Shown here piece by piece: positions 9,703 to 45,149 of a DNA stretch of 64,000 nt. The notes beneath the pieces were generated by a model. The model made no database searches. It was not told where the DNA came from and saw only the letters and a program-made list of their open reading frames with translations. Within the stretch, counting starts at the first letter, position 1; the number at the start of each line of letters is the position of its first letter. This DNA is from Ignavibacteriota bacterium. GTDB taxonomy: Bacteria; Bacteroidota; Ignavibacteria; Ignavibacteriales; Melioribacteraceae. Where the stretch lies: assembly GCA_013112585.1 (NCBI GenBank), contig JABFGH010000027.1, positions 1 through 64,000 on the forward strand, given 5' to 3'. A program made the translations under genes and the position numbers.

Positions 9703-10131
9703 ATGCCGGATATTATTCATTACTTCCAAATAAAATCACCTGCAGAAAAAATATATAAAGCCGTAACAACCAAAGAAGGTGTTGACGGCTGGTGGACGGA
9801 GGAAAATACCGCCGATGCGAAAGTCGGTTCAATTATTGAATTTAACTTTGGTGAACAATACCAAAATAGAATGAAAGTTTTAACTCTGGTCGAAAATAAA
9901 CTAGTTGAGTGGGAATGCCTAGAGGGCGATACTGAATGGGTTGGGACAAAATATAAATTTGAGATAATGGAAGATGAACAGTATTGCTGGTTAAGATTTT
10001 CTCACACAGATTGGAAAGAGCAAACCGACTTTTACGGAAGCTGCAATTACCATTGGGGTTTATACATGAAGAGTTTAAAGAGTTTTTGCGAAGATGGCAA
10101 AGGAACTCCCTTTTTAAAAACATTGACTTAA
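9703..10131 (+). CDS. SRPBCC/AHSA1-family protein
   Basis: A 142-aa protein of the START-like SRPBCC fold (Aha1/CalC type). It begins with a beta-strand and the I-K-S-P-A-E-K-I-Y-K-A-V-T-T-K-E-G-V-D-G-W-W-T signature and ends in the amphipathic C-terminal helix W-G-L-Y-M-K-S-L-K. The start at 9703 follows AAAGGAGAAAGA; the TTG at 9688 overlaps that ribosome-binding site. Members bind hydrophobic ligands or act in stress responses; the ligand cannot be predicted. It lies 19 bp upstream of the NTF2-like gene on the same strand, so the two are probably cotranscribed. Confidence 0.85.
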   Translation: MPDIIHYFQIKSPAEKIYKAVTTKEGVDGWWTEENTADAKVGSIIEFNFGEQYQNRMKVLTLVENKLVEWECLEGDTEWVGTKYKFEIMEDEQYCWLRFSHTDWKEQTDFYGSCNYHWGLYMKSLKSFCEDGKGTPFLKTLT

Positions 10132-31577: not shown

Positions 31578-32423
31578 CTATATCTCCTTAAATTTTTCGC
31601 CGAGTGCAAAACCTCTCTCTGTCTTGATCACTTTAGCTCCCGCAATAAACGGGTCATGCTCAAAAATTAATGTCCAATCCTCTTCAACAGCTTGGGGCAG
31701 AAAAATATTTTTCTCTTTCACAGTTTCAAGCGGCTGAACATCGTAACCCATAACATACGGAATAGGAACATGCGATGAAGTAGGTATAAGGTCAGCACAA
31801 TAAAAAAGTGTGTTTGATGCATCAGAAATTTTTAAAGCCTGCATTGCAATTGTGTGTCCGTTAAGCGGGTGGAACTCAATCTCATCATCAAAGTTTGCCT
31901 GCCCATTAATAAAATGCAGAATCCCTTCTTCTGCAAGGGGAATAAATCTCTCCTTTATAAAACTGCCGCGGTCTTTCTGCGTAGGATTTTTCGCCCACTC
32001 AAATTGATCTTTCTGCACATGATATTTTGCACGCGGAAATGCAGGAACCCATTTTTCATTTTCTAAAATTACAGATCCGCCCGTATGATCAAAATGAAGG
32101 TGAGTTAAAATTACATCGGTAATATCTGAAGGAGATAAATTATTTTTTTTGAGCGAACTGACGAGAGCATCATTCGATTGATCGACATTATAAATTTTTG
32201 TGAATTTCTCATCCCAATAACTTCCCATTCCTGTATCAACAAGTATAACTTTATTGTCGCTCTGCAGAAGCAGGCATTGCACTTTAAGTGTTATACGGTT
32301 TTTATCATCCGCGGGATTTGTTTTGCCCCATAATGGTTTTGGGATAATGCCGAACATTGCTCCGCCATCCAAACCAAACGTGCCGGTTTGAATTAGACTA
32401 ATATTATATTTTCCAATTTTCAT
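31578..32423 (-). CDS. metallo-beta-lactamase-fold hydrolase
   Basis: A 281-aa MBL-fold enzyme. The metal motif is T-H-L-H-F-D-H-T-G, with the second-shell Asp in V-D-T-G-M-G. Further ligands are the His in L-N-G-H-T and the Asp in Y-C-A-D. This is the AttM/quorum-quenching lactonase-like clade; the physiological substrate is not evident. First gene of MBL-Rieske-queG. A second copy of its first 69 codons and its upstream region lies at 34224-34486, identical at protein level. Confidence 0.88.
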   Translation of the reverse strand: MKIGKYNISLIQTGTFGLDGGAMFGIIPKPLWGKTNPADDKNRITLKVQCLLLQSDNKVILVDTGMGSYWDEKFTKIYNVDQSNDALVSSLKKNNLSPSDITDVILTHLHFDHTGGSVILENEKWVPAFPRAKYHVQKDQFEWAKNPTQKDRGSFIKERFIPLAEEGILHFINGQANFDDEIEFHPLNGHTIAMQALKISDASNTLFYCADLIPTSSHVPIPYVMGYDVQPLETVKEKNIFLPQAVEEDWTLIFEHDPFIAGAKVIKTERGFALGEKFKEI

Positions 32424-32479
32424 AAACTAAAGTATTTGTTAATTATTATGACTAACTATCCAAATTTACAATTATATCT
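32217..32479. repeat. 263-bp direct repeat, left copy (5' end of MBL gene)
   Basis: Covers codons 1-69 of the MBL gene and about 56 bp upstream. Copy 2 starts 2007 bp to the right at 34224. I count 11 mismatches in 263 positions. Nine are in coding sequence and all nine are synonymous. Confidence 0.9.
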
Positions 32480-32533: not shown

Positions 32534-32577
32534 TAGCCAAATCTCGTATTTTTTTGTACATTTGGCTGGTTATAAAT
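32534..32577. repeat. AGCCAAAT hairpin repeat upstream of the ATPase gene
   Basis: TAGCCAAATCT, 16 bases, TTTGGCTG, then TATAAA. The AGCCAAA and TTTGGCT arms pair. An equal-length copy with the same arms lies at 34026-34069, so the two bracket the ATPase gene, ending 15 bp before its ATG and starting 12 bp after its stop. Confidence 0.8.
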
Positions 32578-32591
32578 ATTTACGGATAAAA

Positions 32592-34013
32592 ATGTTAATC
32601 GGAAGAAAATCTGAAATAGTAATATTAGAAAGTGCTTTGCAAAGTAAAAAGTCCGAACTAATAGCTGTATATGGCAGAAGAAGAGTTGGAAAAACTTTTT
32701 TAATAAGGGAAGTTTTCAAAACGCAAATACAGTTTGAATTATCCGGTCTGCATAACAGAAAATTATCAGATCAATTAGAAAATTTTTCGATTGAACTTTC
32801 ATCTAAACTGAAGAACTCTAAAAATATTACTAAGCCTGTAAGTTGGTTAGAAGCATTCAAATTATTAGCTGAATATATCGACAAGTCAAGATCAAAAAAG
32901 AAAAAAGTAATTTTTATTGACGAATTCCCATGGCTTGTTACTCCGAAATCAAAATTTTTAATGGCATTTGAAAATTTTTGGAATAGCTATGCTGCAAAAA
33001 GAAACGATTTAGTTGTTGTAATTTGTGGTTCAGCGGCTTCTTATATGGTTCAAAAAATCATTAATAATAAAGGGGGACTTCACCATAGAATTACACAAAC
33101 TATTAGACTACTGCCGTTTACTTTGCATGAGACCGAACTTTTTTTAAAAAGCAAAAATATTCAGTTTTCACGCTATGATATTCTGCAGCTTTATATGGCA
33201 ATTGGAGGCATTCCATATTATCTAGAATTTTTAAGAAAAGGTGAAAGCATTGCTCAAGCGCTAGACCGATTGTGTTTTGCAAAAGATGGGGTCTTAAATA
33301 ATGAATTTAATCTCGTATTTTCCTCATTATTTGAGAACCATGAAAGACATATCAATATTGTCACGTCACTAGCTGCCGTAAGAAAAGGACTTACTCGCAG
33401 TGATCTATTGCAAAAAAGTAAAATAACTACTGGAGGTACATTTACCGGAACGATTCAAGATTTAGTTGAATCGGGCTTCGTAGCTCAATTCCTTCCTTTT
33501 GGCAAAACAAGTAAGGATACTCTCTATAGATTAACAGACGAGTACTCCATGTTCTTTCTTAAATTTATTAGCAACAGATCAAATGGCGCGGGAACTTGGA
33601 AAAAGTTGTTTAACTCTAAGTCTTATGTTGCTTGGGCGGGATTTAGTTTTGAAACTGTCTGTTTAAAACATGTGGAGCAAATAAAAACCGCTTTGGGTAT
33701 TTCAGCAATTTATTCGAATAATGCCAGTTGGATTGGTAAGGACTCAACTAATGGAGCTCAAATTGATTTGCTGATTGATAGAGATGACAATATAATTAAT
33801 CTATGCGAAATGAAATTCGCACATGATACTTTTACAATCACAAAAAGATATGCCGGTGAAATAAAAAATAAAGTGACCACTTTTAAATTAAATACGAAAA
33901 CCAAAAAAAATATTTTTGTAACACTTATTACTACCTACGGCTTAAAAGAAAATAGTTATCGATTAGAATTAGTTGATAATAGTCTGGAGATGGGTTGTCT
34001 TTTCGAAGATTGA
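32592..34013 (+). CDS. STAND-like ATPase (ATPase_2 + DUF234)
   Basis: A 473-aa protein from the ATG at 32592 (M-L-I-G-R-K-S-E); an upstream TTG at 32562 falls inside the hairpin repeat. Walker A is Y-G-R-R-R-V-G-K-T (Lys34) and Walker B is V-I-F-I-D-E-F-P-W (Asp110, Glu111). The C-terminal DUF234 domain ends in A-Q-I-D-L-L-I and L-C-E-M-K-F-A, a PD-(D/E)XK-like arrangement that may be active or degenerate. The family is found in many copies in archaea and bacteria, often in mobile or defence contexts, with unclear function. It lies between two hairpin repeats in a region bounded by the MBL duplication, so it is probably acquired DNA. Confidence 0.85.
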   Translation: MLIGRKSEIVILESALQSKKSELIAVYGRRRVGKTFLIREVFKTQIQFELSGLHNRKLSDQLENFSIELSSKLKNSKNITKPVSWLEAFKLLAEYIDKSRSKKKKVIFIDEFPWLVTPKSKFLMAFENFWNSYAAKRNDLVVVICGSAASYMVQKIINNKGGLHHRITQTIRLLPFTLHETELFLKSKNIQFSRYDILQLYMAIGGIPYYLEFLRKGESIAQALDRLCFAKDGVLNNEFNLVFSSLFENHERHINIVTSLAAVRKGLTRSDLLQKSKITTGGTFTGTIQDLVESGFVAQFLPFGKTSKDTLYRLTDEYSMFFLKFISNRSNGAGTWKKLFNSKSYVAWAGFSFETVCLKHVEQIKTALGISAIYSNNASWIGKDSTNGAQIDLLIDRDDNIINLCEMKFAHDTFTITKRYAGEIKNKVTTFKLNTKTKKNIFVTLITTYGLKENSYRLELVDNSLEMGCLFED

Positions 34014-34183: not shown

Positions 34184-34225
34184 TCTTTCCAAAGATTCTA
34201 TCTTTTTCAGAGATGTGATCTTGAT
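34184..34225. repeat. CCAAAGATC hairpin repeat (H1), copy 1
   Basis: TTTCCAAAGATTCTATCT, TTTTC, AGAGATGTGATCTTGAT. The inverted repeat is AAGATNCTATCTCT / AGAGATATGATCTT. It abuts the truncated MBL copy. Three further copies lie at 53435, 54371 and 54631, around the toxin-antitoxin pair. Confidence 0.75.
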
Positions 34226-34430
34226 AACTTCCCATTCCTGTATCAACAAGTATAACTTTGTTGTCGCTCTGCAGAAGCAGGCATTGCACTTTAAGTGTTA
34301 TACGGTTTTTATCATCCGCGGGATTTGTTTTACCCCACAAAGGTTTTGGGATTATCCCGAACATCGCCCCGCCATCCAAACCGAACGTGCCGGTTTGAAT
34401 TAGACTAATATTATATTTTCCAATTTTCAT
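34224..34430 (-). pseudogene. truncated copy of the MBL hydrolase gene (codons 1-69)
   Basis: The first 69 residues are identical to those of the intact gene 2 kb away. The frame then runs a few codons into the H1 repeat and stops at about 34176. The metal-binding T-H-L-H-F-D-H motif is missing, so the fragment cannot be active. Its 5' flank up to 34486 is also duplicated. Because all nine coding differences are synonymous, it must have been part of a functional gene when it diverged, so a foreign or paralogous allele was truncated rather than a recent duplicate decaying in place. Confidence 0.85.
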
Positions 34431-34580
34431 AAACTAAAGTATTTGTTAATTATTATGACTAACTATTCAAATTTACGATTATAAATTGAAATTGAAAAAA
34501 ATTACTGATAAGTTTGGTTTGATTAAAGGCAGTAAATTAATTTTAATTCTTTCATTCACTAACTATGGTTTGTTTAGCTA

Positions 34581-37500
34581 ATGGAAAACCTAATAAACAG
34601 CATTTCGCACAAAACAATTCAAAATTTCTTTCGCAGTAAATCTGAAAAATTTAGACCGATTAATAAAAACTATACTCACTACCTAAAAGATGCGGATGCA
34701 GAATTTGTTGATGAACTTTTTCTACTCGGCGAAATTGATTTTGAAGAAGATGCCCAAGAACTAATAATTATTGCCGGCAAGTGGAAAAAGGAATTAACCG
34801 AACGCACAAGTAAACTGCGTCAATACAAAATTGCTAAGGAAGTTTTAAAAGCAAATAACAGCAATGCTGCAATTTTTATTTTTTATGATGAAGAAAACCA
34901 TTTCCGTTTTTCTCTTGTAACTGCAAGCTATAGCGGTACTAAACGGAATTTTACTACCTACAAACGTTATACTTATTTTGTTAGTCCCGAATTAACCAAC
35001 AAAACTTTTAAAGAAAGAATTGGTAAATGTTCGTTTACAAGTGTTAATACTATTCAAGAAGCTTTTAGTGTTGAAAAGGTAACCAAAGAGTTCTATAAAG
35101 AAATTGCCAACTGGTATTTCTGGGCAATCAAAGAATGCAATTTTCCAAAGGATGCCGAAAAGGAAGTTAATGGTAAAAATAATGCAGTAATTCGTTTAAT
35201 TACTAGAATGATTTTTATCTGGTTTATGAAACAAAGAAATCTTGTACCGAATAATTTATTCGACTATAATTTTATTAAATCAATACTAAGGGATACAACA
35301 TCAAAAAAAACAACTTATTATAAGGCAATATTGCAAAATCTATTCTTTGCAACTTTGAACACTAAAACAAAAGAAAGAAAATTCAGATTTCAAAAATCGT
35401 TTCAGGGTAAGAACAGAGATTATTTTGATCAAAGCGTTTACAGATATGAAGATTATTTTAAAAACAAAAATGATATGCTGAAAATCTTCAAAGAAATTCC
35501 ATTCCTTAACGGAGGATTATTTGATTGTTTAGATAGAAGAATTATAGATAATGATAAAAATATTGAAATAAGAATTGATGGATTTTCTGATAAAGAAATT
35601 GGGTTAAAGGTGCCTAATTTTCTGTTCTTTAATGATGAAGTAGAACTCGATTTAAATAATGATTATGGAACTAAAAATAAAAAATATAAAACCGAAGGCT
35701 TAATAAACATTCTGCAGGCATATAATTTTACAATAGATGAAAACGATCCGAGTGATGTAGAAGTTGCACTTGATCCCGAATTACTTGGCAAAGTCTTTGA
35801 AAACCTTCTTGCAAGTTTTAATCCCGAAACTTCCACAACTGCCCGCAAAGCTACCGGAAGCTATTACACACCGCGTGAAATTGTTGATTATATGGTTTCT
35901 CAATCTCTTAAAGAATATTTTAAAACTCATTTAATAAAAATTGATAAATTTGATGAAAAATTAGATAAACTTTTTAGTCCAAATAGTGAAGAAGAAAACA
36001 TAAATCCTTTTAATAAAATCGAAACAAAACAACTTGTAAAACTAATTGATAATGTTAGAATTGTAGATCCCGCAGTTGGTTCCGGCGCTTTCCCAATGGG
36101 CATTTTGAACAAACTTGTTTTTTTACTTGCAAAGGTAGACCCCAAAAATGAAATTTGGAAAGATACTCAAGTTAAAGCGGTTGAAAATAATATTACAGAC
36201 CCGGCGCTAAGACAAAAACTAATACTGCAAATTGAAGAAGCTTTTGAAGATAAAAATTTTAATTACGGCAGAAAACTTTACTTAATACAAAATTGTATAT
36301 ACGGAGTTGATATTCAGCAGATTGCAGTTGAAATTGCAAAACTCCGTTTCTTTATTTCGCTGCTTGTTGATGAAAATATTGATAAAGCCAAAGATAATTG
36401 GGGAATTGAACCACTGCCGAATCTTGAATTTAAACTAATGCAGGGCAACAGCCTAATTTCTGAATTTATGGGAATTAATTTTGATGAAGAAAAACCTCGT
36501 AAAATAGATTCACTTTTTGTAGATGAATCTGAAAGTCTGATTGATGAATTTCAAGATAAAAAGAATGCGTTCCAAAATGAAGCTGATAGGAAAAAGAAGG
36601 AAAAATTAAGAAAAGAAATTGAAGAGCTTATAATTAAAATTTTTGAAAATAAACTAAAAAGAGAAAAAGCAGATTACTTTAACAGACTTGCACACATTGA
36701 AGAAAGATGGCAGGGGCAGGATGAAGTAATAAAAAACGAAAAAGAAAAGGTTTATAAAAGTACTAGATTTAATTTAGATGAAATAGAAAAACAGTTACGT
36801 GAATTTTCATCGGGCACAAAAGCCAAACCATTTTTTCTTTGGAAGTTATACTTTGCAGAAATATTTCATGGGAATAATCCGGGTTTTGATATTGTTATTG
36901 GCAATCCGCCATACATACAGCTTCAAAAAAATGGGGGTGAATTAGCTAACCTTTACAAAGAAAGTAATTTTGAATCATATACAAGAACCGGGGATATTTA
37001 CACACTTTTTTATGAAAACGGAAATAACCTGCTTAACGGAAAAGGACACCTTGTTTTTATAACAAGCAACAAATGGATGCGAGCCGGTTATGGTGAAAAG
37101 TTACGTAAATATCTTGCGGATAATACAACACCAAAATTGCTTATTGATTTAGGTCCTGATGTTTTTGAAGCTGCAACTGTTGATACAAATATTTTACTTT
37201 TCAGCAAACAAAAAACTAATGCAAATTGTAAAGCATGTGCTATAAAAGAAAAACTGAATAACGGAAAAACTACACTTGCAGAATATATTAAGCAAAACAG
37301 CTTAATGCTGAACTCTTTTACAAAAGATGCCTGGATTATACTTAGCCCTATTGAACAAAGTATTAAAGAAAAAATTGAAAAAGTTGGAACACCCCTAAAA
37401 GATTGGGATATTAAAATTAACCGTGGAATATTAACCGGATTAAATGAAGCATTTATTATTAGTGGTAAAAAGCGCACGGAGATTTTACATAATTGTAAAA

Positions 37501-38186
37501 CAGCAGATGAACGAAAACGTACAGACGAATTAATTAGACCCATTTTACGCGGCAGAGATATAAAAAGATATAAAGCTGAATTTGCAGATTTGTGGCTAAT
37601 AAATACTCATAACGGCTATACTGATGAAGCTGGAAAAAAAATAAAAAGAATAGAAATTGATGATTATCCTGCCGTGAAAGAGCATTTGGATAACTATTTT
37701 GAAAAGCTGGTAAAACGAGATGACCAAGGTGATACGCCATATAACTTGCGTAGTTGTGCTTATATGGAGGATTTTTTTAAGCCTAAAATTATTTACCAAG
37801 AAATGGTTCAAAAACCGTGCTTTGTATATGATGAAAGTAAAAATTATTTTTGCTTAGATACCGCTAGAATTATCACTGGACCCAATATATTATTTATATA
37901 CCCCATTCTTAATTCTTCATTGTTTTTCTTTGCGATAAAGAGTTTTTATTCTGGAGGTAGACTTGGAACTAGTGGAATAAGAATGAAGCATACATTTTTT
38001 AATATTTTCCCTATGGTAAATTTTCAATCCTCTCACAAAGAGTTAATTCAGAAAATAATTACAGAAAATACTATTAATTCACTTGATAGGCTGACATTTG
38101 AAAGAATTGATACAATAGTTTACGAACTTTATAAATTGACCTCTGAAGAAATAGATTATATTCGATTAAACAATTATACTGATTAA
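34581..38186 (+). CDS. Eco57I-type DNA methyltransferase/restriction protein with switchable C-terminal TRD
   Basis: A 1201-aa protein. The N-terminal region (1-150) has Q-E-L-I-I-I-A-G-K-W-K-K and E-L-T-E-R, possibly a degenerate nuclease-like domain. SAM motif I is D-P-A-V-G-S-G-A-F (about 496). The N6-adenine catalytic motif is N775-P-P-Y. A charged helical insertion (about 650-720) precedes it. R-G-R-D-I-K-R-Y (989-996) marks the entry to the C-terminal target-recognition domain. The nucleotide sequence of exactly this motif recurs inverted at 38816-38844, and a second complete TRD lies between. It should methylate, and perhaps cut, DNA at a sequence set by the current TRD. It is read toward an invertase gene and, further on, an ATPase and PLD-helicase in the same direction. 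Confidence 0.85.
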   Translation: MENLINSISHKTIQNFFRSKSEKFRPINKNYTHYLKDADAEFVDELFLLGEIDFEEDAQELIIIAGKWKKELTERTSKLRQYKIAKEVLKANNSNAAIFIFYDEENHFRFSLVTASYSGTKRNFTTYKRYTYFVSPELTNKTFKERIGKCSFTSVNTIQEAFSVEKVTKEFYKEIANWYFWAIKECNFPKDAEKEVNGKNNAVIRLITRMIFIWFMKQRNLVPNNLFDYNFIKSILRDTTSKKTTYYKAILQNLFFATLNTKTKERKFRFQKSFQGKNRDYFDQSVYRYEDYFKNKNDMLKIFKEIPFLNGGLFDCLDRRIIDNDKNIEIRIDGFSDKEIGLKVPNFLFFNDEVELDLNNDYGTKNKKYKTEGLINILQAYNFTIDENDPSDVEVALDPELLGKVFENLLASFNPETSTTARKATGSYYTPREIVDYMVSQSLKEYFKTHLIKIDKFDEKLDKLFSPNSEEENINPFNKIETKQLVKLIDNVRIVDPAVGSGAFPMGILNKLVFLLAKVDPKNEIWKDTQVKAVENNITDPALRQKLILQIEEAFEDKNFNYGRKLYLIQNCIYGVDIQQIAVEIAKLRFFISLLVDENIDKAKDNWGIEPLPNLEFKLMQGNSLISEFMGINFDEEKPRKIDSLFVDESESLIDEFQDKKNAFQNEADRKKKEKLRKEIEELIIKIFENKLKREKADYFNRLAHIEERWQGQDEVIKNEKEKVYKSTRFNLDEIEKQLREFSSGTKAKPFFLWKLYFAEIFHGNNPGFDIVIGNPPYIQLQKNGGELANLYKESNFESYTRTGDIYTLFYENGNNLLNGKGHLVFITSNKWMRAGYGEKLRKYLADNTTPKLLIDLGPDVFEAATVDTNILLFSKQKTNANCKACAIKEKLNNGKTTLAEYIKQNSLMLNSFTKDAWIILSPIEQSIKEKIEKVGTPLKDWDIKINRGILTGLNEAFIISGKKRTEILHNCKTADERKRTDELIRPILRGRDIKRYKAEFADLWLINTHNGYTDEAGKKIKRIEIDDYPAVKEHLDNYFEKLVKRDDQGDTPYNLRSCAYMEDFFKPKIIYQEMVQKPCFVYDESKNYFCLDTARIITGPNILFIYPILNSSLFFFAIKSFYSGGRLGTSGIRMKHTFFNIFPMVNFQSSHKELIQKIITENTINSLDRLTFERIDTIVYELYKLTSEEIDYIRLNNYTD
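37537..37565 (+). repeat. left inverted repeat of the invertible TRD segment
   Basis: The 29 bp starting GACCCATTTTACGCGGCAG and ending GATATAAAA match the reverse complement of 38816-38844 except for one base (37556, A versus G; AGA/AGG, both Arg). It encodes part of R-P-I-L-R-G-R-D-I-K, so inversion through it keeps the reading frame. Confidence 0.9.
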
Positions 38187-38842
38187 GATGCTTCAATAAA
38201 TTTTATTTCTTCCGCGGTTAATTCCATTAGTTCGTAAAAGTTCTTGTTAATTGTTTTTTCAATCTCTGCAGTGTTTGTTCCCATTTCTTTTGATTCAATG
38301 ATATTATTAACTTTTTCAACATACCACAATTGATTTTTTTGATCTATTATTGGTATACGGATGTTTTCGAAAAATATTTTACTTAATTCTCGTGTGCCAC
38401 CTTGTAACTCAGGTAAATTCAGCTTAATCCAAAAGTGTGCAATTTTAGTATTTAGGAACGAAGTTAAATAAGCCAATGATTCACCAGTTAATATGAAACA
38501 CTTTTGATTTGTCATATAATTTTGTTCATCAAGTATAAAAGGCAAATATTTTGTCATATTAGGATAGATTATTTTCTGTTTATTAAAATCCTCCCAATAA
38601 TTTATACTATCTTGTGTTTCAAACCATTTGTTTTCCGTTTTCTTTCTCGTCTTTTCTTTTTTGCCTTCTTTGTTAATAAAAGTTTCACCGGTCTGTTTAA
38701 TTTTTGGTAAATATGTTTCTAAGTGTTTTTTTACTGCGGGAAAGGTTTCAATATCATAATTTCTACTTGGAAAAGTCGCTATAAGATATAAATCAGCAAA
38801 TTCTGCCCTGTACCGTTTTATATCCCTGCCGCGTAAAATGGG
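38183..38842 (-). CDS. silent alternative TRD cassette (C-terminal half of the methyltransferase, no start of its own)
   Basis: On the minus strand the frame is open for 219 codons from the right inverted repeat to a TAA at 38183-38185. It begins P-I-L-R-G-R-D-I-K-R-Y-R-A-E-F-A-D-L-Y, the same motif as in the intact gene (P-I-L-R-G-R-D-I-K-R-Y-K-A-E-F-A-D-L-W), keeps F-P-A-V-K-K-H-L-E and F-x-K-Q-K-I-I-Y-x-x-M, then diverges. The tail F-Y-E-L-M-E-L-T-A-E-E-I-K aligns with V-Y-E-L-Y-K-L-T-S-E-E-I-D of the active TRD. There is no start codon or ribosome-binding site at its 5' end; an internal ATG at 38557 would give only a 124-aa fragment. It is intact, as expected of a stored cassette. Confidence 0.85.
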   Translation of the reverse strand, partial: PILRGRDIKRYRAEFADLYLIATFPSRNYDIETFPAVKKHLETYLPKIKQTGETFINKEGKKEKTRKKTENKWFETQDSINYWEDFNKQKIIYPNMTKYLPFILDEQNYMTNQKCFILTGESLAYLTSFLNTKIAHFWIKLNLPELQGGTRELSKIFFENIRIPIIDQKNQLWYVEKVNNIIESKEMGTNTAEIEKTINKNFYELMELTAEEIKFIEAS

Positions 38843-38844
38843 TC
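38816..38844 (-). repeat. right inverted repeat of the invertible TRD segment
   Basis: Reverse complement of the left repeat with one mismatch in 29 bp. Homology stops sharply outside (TTAATTA versus ATAAAAAC just upstream in the coding sense) and declines inside, so the identity is not explained by general gene similarity. Confidence 0.9.
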
Positions 38845-38890
38845 GTTTTTATTATACTTTCCCTTTCAAATAATTTTTGAGGTATCAATT

Positions 38891-39509: not shown

Positions 39510-39641
39510 TTTGGCAGTCATGCAACAACCCTAGAAAACCAAATAGTTTACAAACTTTACGGTTTAACAGAAGAAAAAATAAAGCTGGTGAAAAACGACC
39601 TCACCCCAAACCCCTCTCCTAAACCATGAGAGGGGCTTTTA
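39510..39641 (+). pseudogene. remnant of a third methyltransferase TRD tail
   Basis: In one frame from about 39519 the sequence reads T-T-L-E-N-Q-I-V-Y-K-L-Y-G-L-T-E-E-K-I-K-L-V, the characteristic C-terminal tail of Eco57I/TaqI-type methyltransferases. It aligns with I-V-Y-E-L-Y-K-L-T-S-E-E-I of the active TRD. No intact upstream part exists, because the invertase gene ends at 39490. The frame then runs into a hairpin repeat. It may be the original 3' end of the methyltransferase gene, displaced when the switching unit was inserted. Confidence 0.65.
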
Positions 39642-39687
39642 AATTTCTTCTCCTTTTGAAGGAGAGGGCTAGGGTGAGGTAGAGAGG
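39598..39687. repeat. CCTCACCC/GGGTGAGG hairpin repeat, copy 1
   Basis: CCTCACCCCAAACCCCTCTCCT and AGGAGAGGGCTAGGGTGAGG pair over about 20 positions. The trailing AGAGAGGAC gives the ribosome-binding site of the DUF559 gene. A second, shorter copy lies at 40077-40175 in the same relation to a decayed DUF559 gene. Confidence 0.8.
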
Positions 39688-39690
39688 ACT

Positions 39691-40062
39691 ATGAGCAAAC
39701 ACCTCAACAAACCAGAACTAAAACAACGCCGCCGCCAACTGCGCCAAGACCAAACCTACGCAGAAAAAGTAATGTGGTCACAACTGCGTAACCGGCAGTT
39801 TCTCGGAATTAAGTTTAAACGGCAATACTCGGTTGATAATTATGTATTAGACTATTACGCTCCGGAGCTTAAACTTGCAATTGAGTTAGATGGGAGCGTA
39901 CACAACGAACCCGAACAATTTGAGTATGAGAAAATTCGACAGAAACACATAGAAAAATTTGGAATAAAATTTATACGAGTAACTAATAAAGAACTGTTAA
40001 GTAATCCGAATAAAACATTCAGCAAAATTGAAAATGAGATAAATAAGTTAGACAATAATTAG
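39691..40062 (+). CDS. DUF559 endonuclease-fold protein
   Basis: A 123-aa protein of the DUF559 family, which has the Vsr/very-short-patch-repair-like PD-(D/E)XK fold. Visible are A-E-K-V-M-W-S-Q-L-R-N-R, F-K-R-Q-Y-S-V-D-N-Y-V-L-D-Y-Y (catalytic Asp), L-A-I-E-L-D-G-S-V-H (Glu and Asp) and I-R-V-T-N-K-E. The biological role is unknown; members are frequent near DNA-modification genes and hairpin repeats. It uses AGAGAGGACT from the upstream repeat as ribosome-binding site, so gene and repeat may form one unit. Confidence 0.85.
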   Translation: MSKHLNKPELKQRRRQLRQDQTYAEKVMWSQLRNRQFLGIKFKRQYSVDNYVLDYYAPELKLAIELDGSVHNEPEQFEYEKIRQKHIEKFGIKFIRVTNKELLSNPNKTFSKIENEINKLDNN

Positions 40063-40076
40063 AAGGAGCTAATAAC

Positions 40077-40175
40077 CTCATCCCAAACCTGCCTTTGCCG
40101 ACAGGTATGCTTCTCCTTATAACTTTTAAATTCCCTCTCCTTTTGAAGGAGAGAGTTAGGGTGAGGTAGAGAGGA
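40077..40175. repeat. CCTCACCC/GGGTGAGG hairpin repeat, copy 2
   Basis: CCTCATCCCAAACCTGCC on the left and CTTTTGAAGGAGAGAGTTA, GGGTGAGGTAGAGAGGACT on the right. The right arm and the following gene start match copy 1 with an offset of 487 bp. Confidence 0.75.
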
Positions 40176-40177
40176 CT

Positions 40178-40260
40178 GTGAGCAAGCACTTCAACAAACC
40201 CGCACTTAATACCCATCACCGACAACTAAACCAAGAACCAACATGCACAGAAAAGTGTCA
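40178..40260 (+). pseudogene. decayed 5' fragment of a second DUF559 gene
   Basis: From GTG at 40178, translation gives M-S-K-H-F-N-K-P-A-L-N-T, matching M-S-K-H-L-N-K-P-E-L-K-Q of the intact gene. Similarity fades over about 80 bp and the frame is lost near 40255. The unit of hairpin plus gene has been duplicated and only one gene copy has survived. Confidence 0.7.
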
Positions 40261-40384: not shown

Positions 40385-41758
40385 ATGAAGAGATTTTTTT
40401 CAGATTATTTAACGGAACGCCATTCAAAAAAAAATAAAAAGCCATTAATTGTTAATGGTGCAAGGCAAGTAGGCAAAACATACGTTATTGAAGAATTTGC
40501 AAGACAAAACTTTGATGACTATATAAAAATAAACTTTGAAGAAACGCCCGAGTTAAAAGAATATTTTAAGACAAACGATGTAATTGAAATAAAGCAGAAT
40601 CTTGAAGTTTATTTTGGCAAAAAAATCATTCCCGGAAAAACACTATTATTTATTGATGAAATACAAGCCTGCCCCGAAGCAATTGTTACATTGCGGTACT
40701 TTTACGAAAAACTGCCGGGAATAGATGTAATAACTGCCGGGTCCTTATTAGACCACACTCTTAATAACTTAAAATATTCCATGCCGGTTGGCAGAGTGGA
40801 ATTTGCATATTTAACGCCAATGAATTTTTATGAATTTCTTTCGGCATTAAGCGAAACAGCGATATTAGATTTTTTAAAGAATTATAAACTTGAAAAAGAG
40901 ATTCCACTGCCTCTGCATCAAAAAATATTAAAAATTTTAAGACTATATTTTTTTATTGGCGGAATGCCTCAAGCAGTAAAAGCTTATCTTGAAAATAATA
41001 GTTTAAAGGATGTTGAGATTGTTCATGAAAGCATACTTAAATCACTACAGTATGATTTTGCTAAATATGGAACCAGAAGTCAGCAAGAAGTTTTAATAGG
41101 CTTACTTAAATATCTGCCAAATAGTATTGGTAAAAAATTTAAGTACACAAATGCTATTCCTGAAATGAGGGTAGAAAATACAAAAAGAGCGTTGGAGTTA
41201 TTAAAGCTAAGTAGAATTGTAAATATAGTATATAGTACTGATGCAAATGGAATTCCATTAGAAAGTGAAATTAATCAAAAAGTATTTAAACCTATTTTTT
41301 TAGACATTGGATTAGCGAATCACTTGTTAAAACTGCGTCTTCAAAAAATAGAAGATTTAATTACGGTTAATGAAGGTAATTTGGCAGAACAGTTTATTGG
41401 TCAACAGCTTTTAAGTTTAGAACCTTTTTATTTAGAAAAACAAATTTATTATTGGGCTAGAGAAAAAAGAAACTCTTCTGCTGAAATTGATTTTGTGACC
41501 GAATACAATGGAATGATTATTCCAATTGAAGTAAAGGCAGGAAAAACAGGAACCTTAAAATCATTACATATATTTATGAAAGAGAAAAAAATGAAATATG
41601 CCTTAAGGTTTAATACAGATATAGCTTTAACTACACAAGTAAATAATGAAATGAAAATTGGAAATAATGTAACTGAAATTGAGTACAAATTAATTTCATT
41701 GCCATTATACCTGATATTGGAACATCAAAGAATTTTTGAGAACAGAGAAAATGTCTAA
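40385..41758 (+). CDS. AAA_14/DUF4143 ATPase
   Basis: A 457-aa protein: AAA_14 ATPase domain with Walker A G-A-R-Q-V-G-K-T (residues 25-32) and Walker B L-L-F-I-D-E-I-Q (Asp91, Glu92), then a DUF4143 C-terminal domain with S-A-E-I-D-F-V and I-P-I-E-V-K-A-G-K, a PD-(D/E)XK-like pattern. The family is widespread, usually of unknown role, and often in defence or mobile islands. Here it overlaps the helicase gene by 8 bp (its stop lies within ATGTCTAA), so the two products are probably made together. Confidence 0.88.
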   Translation: MKRFFSDYLTERHSKKNKKPLIVNGARQVGKTYVIEEFARQNFDDYIKINFEETPELKEYFKTNDVIEIKQNLEVYFGKKIIPGKTLLFIDEIQACPEAIVTLRYFYEKLPGIDVITAGSLLDHTLNNLKYSMPVGRVEFAYLTPMNFYEFLSALSETAILDFLKNYKLEKEIPLPLHQKILKILRLYFFIGGMPQAVKAYLENNSLKDVEIVHESILKSLQYDFAKYGTRSQQEVLIGLLKYLPNSIGKKFKYTNAIPEMRVENTKRALELLKLSRIVNIVYSTDANGIPLESEINQKVFKPIFLDIGLANHLLKLRLQKIEDLITVNEGNLAEQFIGQQLLSLEPFYLEKQIYYWAREKRNSSAEIDFVTEYNGMIIPIEVKAGKTGTLKSLHIFMKEKKMKYALRFNTDIALTTQVNNEMKIGNNVTEIEYKLISLPLYLILEHQRIFENRENV

Positions 41759-44700
41759 CAACTTTATTACCAACAATCCGCAAAAAACTAAAACTTTAGA
41801 GAAAAGAGTTAAACAATTAGTTTCCGTCAGCAGCGAGCTGAAATTTTTAGTCGGCTTCTTTTTCTTTTCCGGGTGGAGTAAACTTTTCGATAGTATAAAA
41901 GAGAAAACAGCACATGATGAAAATTTTAATATAAAACTGTTAGTCGGGCTGGAAATTGATAAAACATTAAAAGGAATAATCGAAGCCGCTGATAATAATG
42001 AAGAGTACTCGAATGAAGAAATAGTTAATAATTATTTTCAATCACTTTACACCGCAATAAACAATGCTGAATTAGATGTTGAAGAGTTTTACAATCAAGT
42101 TGAGTTTTTTATTGAACTGCTTGAAAAAGAAAGAATAATATTGAGAAAAACATATAAGCCCAACCATGCTAAGTTATATATATTTAAACTCGGCGGCGAT
42201 GCAGCAGTTGTTACTCCCTCTGAGTTTATTACCGGCAGCAGTAATTTAACCAGGGCAGGTTTAACACATCAAAATGAATTTAATGTAGAAATTAGAGATT
42301 ACGGCATCAAGGAAGCCGAGGAATACTTTGACGAACTTTGGGAATCAGCAATCAAAATTTCTGAGATACCCGAACGCAGGCAATACATAATTGATTTTAT
42401 TAAGAACCGCTCACAAGCTGCCACCGTTACTCCATTTGAAGCTTATGTTTTTGTTTTAAAACTATATGTTGAGTTGATGGAACAGAAACATATAAAGCCT
42501 TATGTAGAAAGATTGTTAGAAGAAAATAATTTTAAAAAGTACAGCTATCAAATTGATGCTGTTAACCAAGCACTTTCAATAATTGAGCAGTATAATGGGG
42601 TTATTGTTGCTGATGTAGTTGGATTAGGCAAATCGGTTATAGCATCTCTGCTGGCAAAAAATCTAGGTAAACGAGGCTTGGTTATTTGTCCGCCCGCTTT
42701 AATTGGTGAGCGAAGAAACAAATCTGGAGAATCAACCGGCTGGTGGGAATATTTACAAAGATTTAAACTGCACGATTGGGAAGTTGAATCATCCGGCAAG
42801 TTAGAGGAACTATCGGAATATTTTAATAAAAACGATGATACTCCCGAAGTAATAATTGTTGATGAAGCACATCGTTTCAGAAACCAAGATACGGCAGATT
42901 ATGAGTTTTTACAGAACATCTGCAGAAATAAAATTGTTCTACTTCTTACCGCAACTCCTTTTAATAATAGTCCGGCTGATATTTTCTCCTTATTAAAACT
43001 TTTTATTATTCCAGGTAAATCGGGCATAACGCTTGATGATGATTTGGAAAGTAGGTTCGCTTCTTATAATTATCTATTCAAACGCCTCTCAAATATTTTA
43101 AAAAATTATAACTCGAAGGAAGATGAAAAGAGAAAAAAAGCTGAGAATCAGTATAAATCTATTTTTGATATAGAACCGCCGATTGACATTAGAAGAGTTA
43201 AGAACGAAACTAAAAGGCTTGCAAAAGAAATTAAATCAGTACTTGAACCAATTTTAATAAGAAGAAATCGTTTAGACTTAGAAGCCGATTATCTTTATTC
43301 AAAAGAAGTTACTGAACTTTCAAAAGTTGAAGACCCTGAAGAATTATTTTTTGAATTATCAACAGAACAATCCTTGTTTTATGATAGAGTGATAAACGAG
43401 TATTTTGGAAGCGAGGGTAAATTTACTGGTGCAATTTATCAGCCGTTTGTTTATGAAAAGAAAACATTTGACGAAGAAAAACTTGGGCTGGAAGATAACC
43501 GAACATTTTTACAGCAGCGCAACTTGTATGATTTTATGAGACGATTGCTTGTAAAAAGATTTGAGAGCTCATTCGGCGCATTTTATGCCAGCATTAAAAG
43601 ATTTAAACGTGTGCATAAAATTGTATTGGAGTTTATTGAAAAAACTGATAAATATATTTTAGATAGAAAACTAATTGAAAGTATTTATGAAAATGATGCA
43701 GATGAAATTGATAAAGAGATAGAAAAATTTGCAGAATCGCTTAAAGATAAAAACTTGCCAAAACATAATAAGGTTTATCATGTAAATAAATTCTCAAGAA
43801 AAACTGATTTTATAACAGATATAGAAAATGACCTTAAACTATTAACAGAGATCAGTAATAAAATTGAAAAACTTGATCTTTTAAACAATGATCCTAAGCG
43901 GGAAGAAGTTCTTCATACAATTAAAAAAATAATTGAGAGCGAAGAAAACCCAAAAAGAAAAGTTATAGTATTCACCGAATATTTAGATACACTGAATTCC
44001 TTAAAGTCATACTTTAAAGAGCATTTCGGAGATCAGATTTTATTTTCTGAAGGAAGTTTAACAATCAGCTTTTCGCATAAACTTAATGAAAATTTTAATG
44101 CTCAATATCAGGGCAGCCATAAAAATCAATTTCAAATATTATTCACTTCCGATAAACTTTCTGAAGGAGTAAACTTAAATAGAGCCGGGACAATAATAAA
44201 TTATGACATACCCTGGAACCCGACACGAGTAATTCAGAGAGTGGGCAGAATTAATAGAATTGGAATGAAAGTTTTTGATCAATTATTTATATATAATTTT
44301 TTCCCTTCTGAAAAAGGCGCAGATATTGTAAAAAGCCGCGAGATTGCTGCAAATAAAATGTTTTTAATTCATAATACTCTTGGCGAGGATTCAAAAATAT
44401 TTGATCCGGATGAAGAACCGACACCAAGTAAATTATTCAACCGCATAAATGAAAATCCGGAGGAAGATGAAGAACAAAGTACATTAACTAAAATTAGAAA
44501 TGAACTGAACATAATTAAAACGAATCATCCCGAAACAATAAAACGAATATCAAATTTTCCATATAGAATTAAATCAGCAAAATCTTTTTCTCAAAATGAA
44601 TTGCTGGTTATCCGCAAAAAGGGACTGAGTTTATTCGTACAAAAAATTGAAGATGAAAACGAGGATAAACCGGATATTAATTTAATTACAATTGATGAGC

Positions 44701-45149
44701 TTATTCCATCCATAAAATGTGATGTTGATGAACCGAAATTAAATTTAAGTGAAAAGTTTTGGCAGCATTATGAGCTAATGAAAAAGTACAAACCCGCATA
44801 TAAAAATACTCAATCAGCTCAATCGATAGAATTTAAATCTCTCACCAACTTACATTCCGCATTAAAAAATTATAGAACTGAGCTTGAACCTCACATTCAG
44901 TTTATTATTGATTTGATAAAAGACTTGAAGGAATATCAAACAATCAATAAATACTCATTACGCCGGTTGATCAAATATGAATTATCGAAAGATGCTTCAG
45001 CGGAAATAGTTCAAAAATTTTCAAATGAAATAATTTCATTAAAATCTCAATTGGGTGAAAACTATTTGGAAATCATAAAAGAAAAAACCAAGCAAACTAA
45101 AACGGAAGTTATAGTTGCAGATGAAAACATTAGAAACCAATTGCTTTAA
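41751..45149 (+). CDS. PLD-nuclease/SNF2-type helicase, probable defence effector
   Basis: An 1132-aa protein from ATG at 41751. Residues 1-230 form a phospholipase-D-like nuclease domain: H139-A-K-L-Y and F-I-T-G-S-S-N-L-T-R-A-G. A superfamily 2 helicase follows: Walker A D-V-V-G-L-G-K-S (Lys294), D371-E-A-H, L-L-T-A-T-P-F-N-N, and in the second lobe S-E-G-V-N-L and R-V-I-Q-R-V-G-R-I-N-R-I-G with the arginine fingers. The C-terminal 250 residues are unassigned. PLD-helicase proteins paired with Eco57I-type methyltransferases look like restriction systems in which the methyltransferase marks self and the helicase-nuclease degrades unmarked DNA. This is inference from architecture and context. 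Confidence 0.88.
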   Translation: MSNNFITNNPQKTKTLEKRVKQLVSVSSELKFLVGFFFFSGWSKLFDSIKEKTAHDENFNIKLLVGLEIDKTLKGIIEAADNNEEYSNEEIVNNYFQSLYTAINNAELDVEEFYNQVEFFIELLEKERIILRKTYKPNHAKLYIFKLGGDAAVVTPSEFITGSSNLTRAGLTHQNEFNVEIRDYGIKEAEEYFDELWESAIKISEIPERRQYIIDFIKNRSQAATVTPFEAYVFVLKLYVELMEQKHIKPYVERLLEENNFKKYSYQIDAVNQALSIIEQYNGVIVADVVGLGKSVIASLLAKNLGKRGLVICPPALIGERRNKSGESTGWWEYLQRFKLHDWEVESSGKLEELSEYFNKNDDTPEVIIVDEAHRFRNQDTADYEFLQNICRNKIVLLLTATPFNNSPADIFSLLKLFIIPGKSGITLDDDLESRFASYNYLFKRLSNILKNYNSKEDEKRKKAENQYKSIFDIEPPIDIRRVKNETKRLAKEIKSVLEPILIRRNRLDLEADYLYSKEVTELSKVEDPEELFFELSTEQSLFYDRVINEYFGSEGKFTGAIYQPFVYEKKTFDEEKLGLEDNRTFLQQRNLYDFMRRLLVKRFESSFGAFYASIKRFKRVHKIVLEFIEKTDKYILDRKLIESIYENDADEIDKEIEKFAESLKDKNLPKHNKVYHVNKFSRKTDFITDIENDLKLLTEISNKIEKLDLLNNDPKREEVLHTIKKIIESEENPKRKVIVFTEYLDTLNSLKSYFKEHFGDQILFSEGSLTISFSHKLNENFNAQYQGSHKNQFQILFTSDKLSEGVNLNRAGTIINYDIPWNPTRVIQRVGRINRIGMKVFDQLFIYNFFPSEKGADIVKSREIAANKMFLIHNTLGEDSKIFDPDEEPTPSKLFNRINENPEEDEEQSTLTKIRNELNIIKTNHPETIKRISNFPYRIKSAKSFSQNELLVIRKKGLSLFVQKIEDENEDKPDINLITIDELIPSIKCDVDEPKLNLSEKFWQHYELMKKYKPAYKNTQSAQSIEFKSLTNLHSALKNYRTELEPHIQFIIDLIKDLKEYQTINKYSLRRLIKYELSKDASAEIVQKFSNEIISLKSQLGENYLEIIKEKTKQTKTEVIVADENIRNQLL

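Follow-up and report, generated by a model that had tools for sequence, protein, structure and literature searches.

The 3′ end of a large adenine methyltransferase gene in an Ignavibacteriota bacterium is probably inverted by an Mpi-type invertase at a repeat termed joint I, an event that exchanges the target-recognition domain (TRD) in use for a silent one. Support comes from 17 loci of the same architecture, whose orientation varies independently of phylogeny, and from closely similar operons that differ by an inversion. The window, that is, the whole stretch of 64,000 nucleotides analysed, corresponds to positions 1-64,000 of contig JABFGH010000027.1 (assembly GCA_013112585.1, forward strand). 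In the proposed mechanism, the Mpi-family serine invertase would recombine the two copies of joint I and so reverse the DNA between them, placing the silent antisense TRD where the active one now stands, and the exchanged TRD would change the sequence that the enzyme methylates.

Organisation of the locus

The features of the locus are listed in Table 1. The original prediction had placed a 29-bp inverted repeat in frame within the R-P-I-L-R-G-R-D-I-K codons of the methyltransferase gene, and the repeat is indeed found there, identical at 28 of 29 positions, with a likeness that extends inward (85% over 55 nt). Given that only ~9e-7 such pairs are expected in a 16-kb stretch, a chance origin is ruled out; inversion of a promoter is ruled out as well, because the repeat sits within the coding frame. 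The second TRD was recovered open on the minus strand, with 219 aa counted from the P codon and a stop at 38183-38185, and inversion of the segment in silico gave the anticipated protein of 1205 aa.

Table 1. Features of the methyltransferase locus, in window positions.
Feature	Position	Strand	Evidence
Eco57I/TaqI_C-type adenine methyltransferase, 1201 aa, present form, TRD class A	34581..38186	+	PF07669, PF12950, PADLOC
Predicted invertible segment between both joint I copies	37537..38844	.	repeat and in-silico inversion
Joint I, sense copy; predicted 2-bp core CC at 37539-37540	37537..37565	+	
Joint I, antisense copy	38816..38844	-	28/29 identical to sense copy
TRD in use, class A N-half (LINTHNG)	37539..38186	+	
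Silent TRD, class B N-half (LIATFPS), open, without own start	38183..38845	-	
Joint M, sense copy, weak in the window; predicted core GG at 37766-37767	37760..37795	+	
Joint M, antisense copy; predicted core at 38593-38594	38565..38600	-	
Mpi-family serine invertase, 199 aa	38891..39490	+	NF009949 above cut-off; PF00239
Remnant of methyltransferase 3′ end, beyond invertase	39542..39590	+	73% over 40 nt to 38114-38153
PLD-SNF2 helicase, probable restriction partner	41736..45149	+	PF13091 and PF00176

The invertase gene that had been noticed just outside the segment starts 46 bp from it. Its product belongs to the Mpi family (NF009949, 327.9 bits against a cut-off of 272, residues 1-197; Resolvase PF00239, 118.3 bits) and is unique in the genome, the sole other match being 25% identical (E 3.2e-6). 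Judged from the sequence, Mpi is the likely recombinase of the window segment, the segment may be switching actively in its own population, and the two TRDs would read different motifs.

A second possible crossover, joint M, has 27 of 36 nt common to both of its window copies, 10 exact. All four combinations of I and M are in frame in silico (1201, 1205, 1198 and 1208 aa), and an in-place I-by-M inversion keeps the frame open with a scrambled N-half. Given joint I and a weaker M, the window locus probably takes two forms and could take four; a further joint found in relatives, O, is not usable here, because the antisense copy begins at I. The core CC of joint I was inferred by hand from the junctions of a rearranged relative, L138 (see below).

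The remnant beyond the invertase, whose reading frame is IVYKLYGLTEEKI, suggests that the cassette displaced an older TRD. Elsewhere in the window, a direct repeat of 260 nt (32217-32476 and 34224-34483, 96% identical), which takes in the 5′ part of a metallo-hydrolase-like ORF (31578-32423), flanks an AAA ATPase gene (32562-34013), as if this gene had been inserted with duplication. Another direct repeat, of 132 nt (39636-39767 and 40123-40254, 80% identical), lies over the start of a DUF559 gene, and its second copy resembles a truncated duplicate.

Identity of the methyltransferase and its probable helicase partner

The methyltransferase contains an Eco57I methylase domain (PF07669, 133.7 bits, cut-off 25.3) and a TaqI_C domain (PF12950, 32.8 bits, cut-off 26.5, residues 987-1128), and IGNPPY is present in the consensus. 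Its best PADLOC match is to the model for type IIG enzymes, which unite nuclease and methylase activity in a single chain (REase_MTase_IIG, 455.6 bits), but Pfam reported no nuclease domain. The PglX protein of BREX is likewise a large single-chain adenine methyltransferase with a C-terminal TRD, and PglX inversion occurs in some BREX loci; however, an identity with PglX was rejected, the window protein scoring 83.1 bits against the BREX-1 PglX cut-off of 500 (NF033452) and 47.8 against 400 (NF033451). A structure model of the C-terminal 501 residues (mean pLDDT 77.4) aligned with CamA (Z 17.1, rmsd 6.6, 414 residues), M.BseCI (Z 16.5, rmsd 7.4, 416 residues) and M.TaqI (Z 13.6, rmsd 6.1, 294 residues), behind which BREX BrxX/PglX ranks (Z ≤12.0). 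When the silent TRD was modelled alone (pLDDT 65.8), the same proteins came first, weakly (best E 1.9e-3).

A relative of the PLD-SNF2 helicase was present near the methyltransferase in 11 of the 15 stretches searched; the match in L134 spans no more than 176 residues, and the four stretches without one include L122, which duplicates L066. The helicase may be the partner that restricts unmarked DNA. Its assignment to DISARM class 1 (DrmD) was rejected (NF038317, 145.6 bits against 610); the PADLOC models DrmMI (96.2 bits) and DrmD (114.8 bits) do match. The same helicase-methyltransferase pair occurs on the Lactococcus plasmid pUCCL635A (L135), which is 97% identical to the plasmid pJM1F over the first 2636 nt; no invertase or antisense TRD is annotated there, and the gene that comes next is one for phage abortive infection.

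The three components in relatives

Of the 101 methyltransferase relatives confirmed in a genome scan, 80 were kept. By tblastn with window queries (E 1e-3), an antisense TRD and Mpi occur together in nine of the 80, only one of them in none, and neither in 71, many of these last being loci cut by contig ends. With Lactococcus plasmids and further genomes added, at least 17 distinct loci, the window included, hold the trio of methyltransferase, antisense TRD and Mpi, a lower bound among the loci examined, and Mpi lies beside the segment in all of them. The titles of the scan records name Sphingobacterium, Anaerolineales, Planctomycetaceae, Victivallales, Bacillota, Bacteroidales, Balneola, Spirochaetes and Bacteroidetes, labels that may be wrong since most records are metagenome bins. 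No near relative of the window was found among 58 relatives (highest identity 57%). The protein scan of viral contigs found no relative and the phage neighbourhood search no match, and a second viral pattern scan returned the same four stretches as the first.

Several records represent one locus (L011 and L100 are L134, L122 is L066, L115 is L170 and L119 is L133). Two loci are uncounted, L172, in which Mpi and one arm with joint I are accompanied by an unmatched remainder of the TRD, and L171, which is truncated. In L034 the antisense arm, near 10024, contains a partial duplication and a stop codon directly ahead of joint I, and the sense TRD of L061 ends early, at 140 aa; with such damaged arms, not every locus can express both forms.

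Inverted operons and their joints

The original prediction had proposed that related genomes be searched for the flipped arrangement, and it was found in Lactococcus plasmids and in IMG/VR contigs. The operons of pUCCL629A and pJM1F (L130/L131) match over 6697 nt on the left (93.1%) and 1241 nt on the right (91.1%), with a 496-nt segment 99.2% identical and inverted, and the other arm (537 nt, 85.5%) also inverted. Contigs L138 and L137 have a core of 2454 nt in common (98.2% identical) and a TRD segment of 541 nt that is 99.4% identical and inverted; Bacteroides finegoldii NZ_OY725960.1 (L173) has the L137 arrangement. It counts against our reading of the window that both documented flips cross at O, the joint missing from its short antisense copy.

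In ten long-arm loci, joint O is an exact run of 12-96 nt, located 239-263 nt upstream of the RPIL codons. Joint I is an exact run of 17-48 nt in eight of these ten loci and is degenerate in L032 and L133, so its use is not universal. The arm of L115 is identical over almost its full length, and no island is visible there. In 12 of 17 loci the runs of joint M share one starting point, a GG; they reach 24-29 nt in six loci (L033, L034, L066, L166, L169 and L170) and only 3-6 nt in L052, L092 and L130. The joint I motif was seen in 42 of the 80 loci (44 places); its codon is Arg in all nine trio loci of the scan (7 CGA, 2 AGA), and at the other places 29 Lys and 6 Arg were found. The contigs of L038 and L059, which have CGA at joint I, end 65 and 56 nt past the codon, as if the assembly had broken at a repeat in mixed orientation, which is only suggestive.

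Rearranged relatives point to inversion at several joints. L138 carries its I-M piece in inverted orientation at the usual position; the L170 counterpart (78% identical) is uninterrupted. Serine recombinases make a 2-bp overlap, and CC/GG are the only common bases at the L138 junctions as read by hand (2 bp), so that this I-by-M inversion fits a serine recombinase. L166 is 92% identical to L138 on both sides of the I-M piece, with different N-halves. In L167, part of the core has been inverted between O and a second site, within the core, with which O has 3 bp in common, and the gene is broken; the rearrangement of L138 likewise breaks the methyltransferase gene. In the stretches read for L137, L167 and L173, neither an antisense copy nor a close match to Mpi is present; these are apparently locked or broken forms, although the sequences of L137 and L173 end nearby. 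Together, L138, L137, L167 and L166 support several inverting joints; in the window, I is strong and M weaker (27/36 nt).

Two classes of TRD N-half

The N-half of the TRD, from RPILRG to the MEDF/WEDF motif, comprises class A (16 sequences), class B (15) and the outliers C and D. The A/B labels were set by eye (LINTHNG/LIATFPS) before the tree was made, and L130a and L131s were relabelled from B to D afterwards. A tree of whole TRDs was set aside as hard to read, the TRD being mosaic, and splitting at M resolved the classes; the trees omit L138 and L139/L136, which are rearranged or split. N-halves are paired as A+B in 14 of 17 loci, A+D in two and B+C in one, with no pair of the same class, and the sense gene carries class A in nine of the 17 and B or D in eight. 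With three C/D tips left out of these counts and of that for the C-halves below, the A/B label requires one change on the tree against 10.6 in shuffles, and the ON/OFF label six changes in each class, against 5.5 and 5.2 in shuffles. The A/B pairing is therefore old and the orientation, unrelated to phylogeny, is not inherited.

Among C-halves the A/B split is only weakly reflected (8 changes against 10.7 shuffled; 77 of 1000 shuffles were as low). All four combinations of arm type and N-half exist in sense genes (RG-A 4, NYG-A 5, RG-B 5, NYG-B 3). Natural chimeras at M suggest that each half of the TRD, N and C, recognises its own part of the target. Since relatives use the further joints O and M, the family as a whole appears to be a specificity shuffler. 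The original idea of a TRD swap by inversion is supported, while alternation between two specificities may be too narrow a description, given three joints in relatives and one strong I plus a weak M in the window. That the cell would stay protected meanwhile was a supposition of the original prediction; broken arrangements occur in the relatives L138 and L167. A wider proposal, which we hold to be about evenly balanced, is that of a widespread TRD shufflon, in which an Mpi-type invertase recombines a single-chain methyltransferase gene at three coding joints near LS[VD][FY], RPILRG and [MW]EDF, reassorting linker arm, TRD N-half and C-half, with A and B N-halves kept as alternatives in bacteria whose labels span several phyla. 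If true, up to eight enzyme variants per locus would be formed (four in the window), with occasional broken states arising from I-by-M inversion.

Discussion

The window could hold a fossil, an old inverted pair of TRDs that switched once and does so no longer in this organism. Damaged or locked versions exist among relatives (L137, L167 and L173, two of them, L137 and L173, cut close by), but in the window neither TRD frame nor the invertase is disrupted and the two copies of the joint agree at 28 of 29 positions, which makes this improbable. A switch that served mainly to turn the methyltransferase ON and OFF would fit the rearrangements of L138 and L167, which break the gene. Nevertheless, every one of the I/M arrangements in the window stays in frame (1198-1208 aa), and from locus to locus the TRD pair is maintained as two distinct classes, something for which an OFF switch would have no need; we give such a switch very little credence.

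That the inversion is due to homologous recombination, or to some other recombinase acting in trans, and not to the adjacent Mpi, is equally hard to credit. O, I and M did not yield a single half-site consensus, and the lack of an obvious one speaks for such an agent. On the other hand, Mpi accompanies the segment in 17 of 17 loci, and the 2 bp common to I and M at the L138 crossover are too little for homologous recombination. Inversion at joint I by the neighbouring Mpi, with exchange of TRDs, is the reading that we favour.

The Milman 2023 survey of gene-altering programmed inversions is said to have predicted gene/pseudogene inversions with type II restriction-modification among the targets. 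With TRD inversion established for type I systems and predicted for type II, the basic switch is of a known kind. In type I hsdS loci, as described for a pneumoniae locus and for B. fragilis, DNA inversion exchanges the TRDs of expressed and silent copies and the methylation target changes (PMC4948785, PMC3090145). The window resembles these accounts in swapping expressed and silent TRDs, but the TRDs described there lie in a separate HsdS subunit, whereas in the window a single-chain methyltransferase carries the TRD as its own end. The B. fragilis hsdS shufflon is described with four repeat sets and an adjacent tyrosine integrase (PMC3090145), in contrast to the serine invertase of the window. 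Mpi of B. fragilis, of the same serine invertase family, is reported to invert 13 regions, seven of them capsule promoters (PMC4747536), whereas the window Mpi lies beside one coding segment. In the limited set of literature searched, TRD inversion in a type II/IIG enzyme was not recognised, which says little on priority, and reassortment at three joints, the conserved pairing of A with B and the partnership with Mpi were not met.

A lineage that varies the sequence it methylates and, with a nuclease partner, the DNA it attacks would present phages with a mixed defence, and possibly also a mixed gene regulation. The A/B pairing poses the testable question of why two classes of N-half are kept together in distant bacteria while the C-halves vary. 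The swap of TRDs in a single-chain methyltransferase by a serine invertase would constitute a compact natural system for domain exchange.
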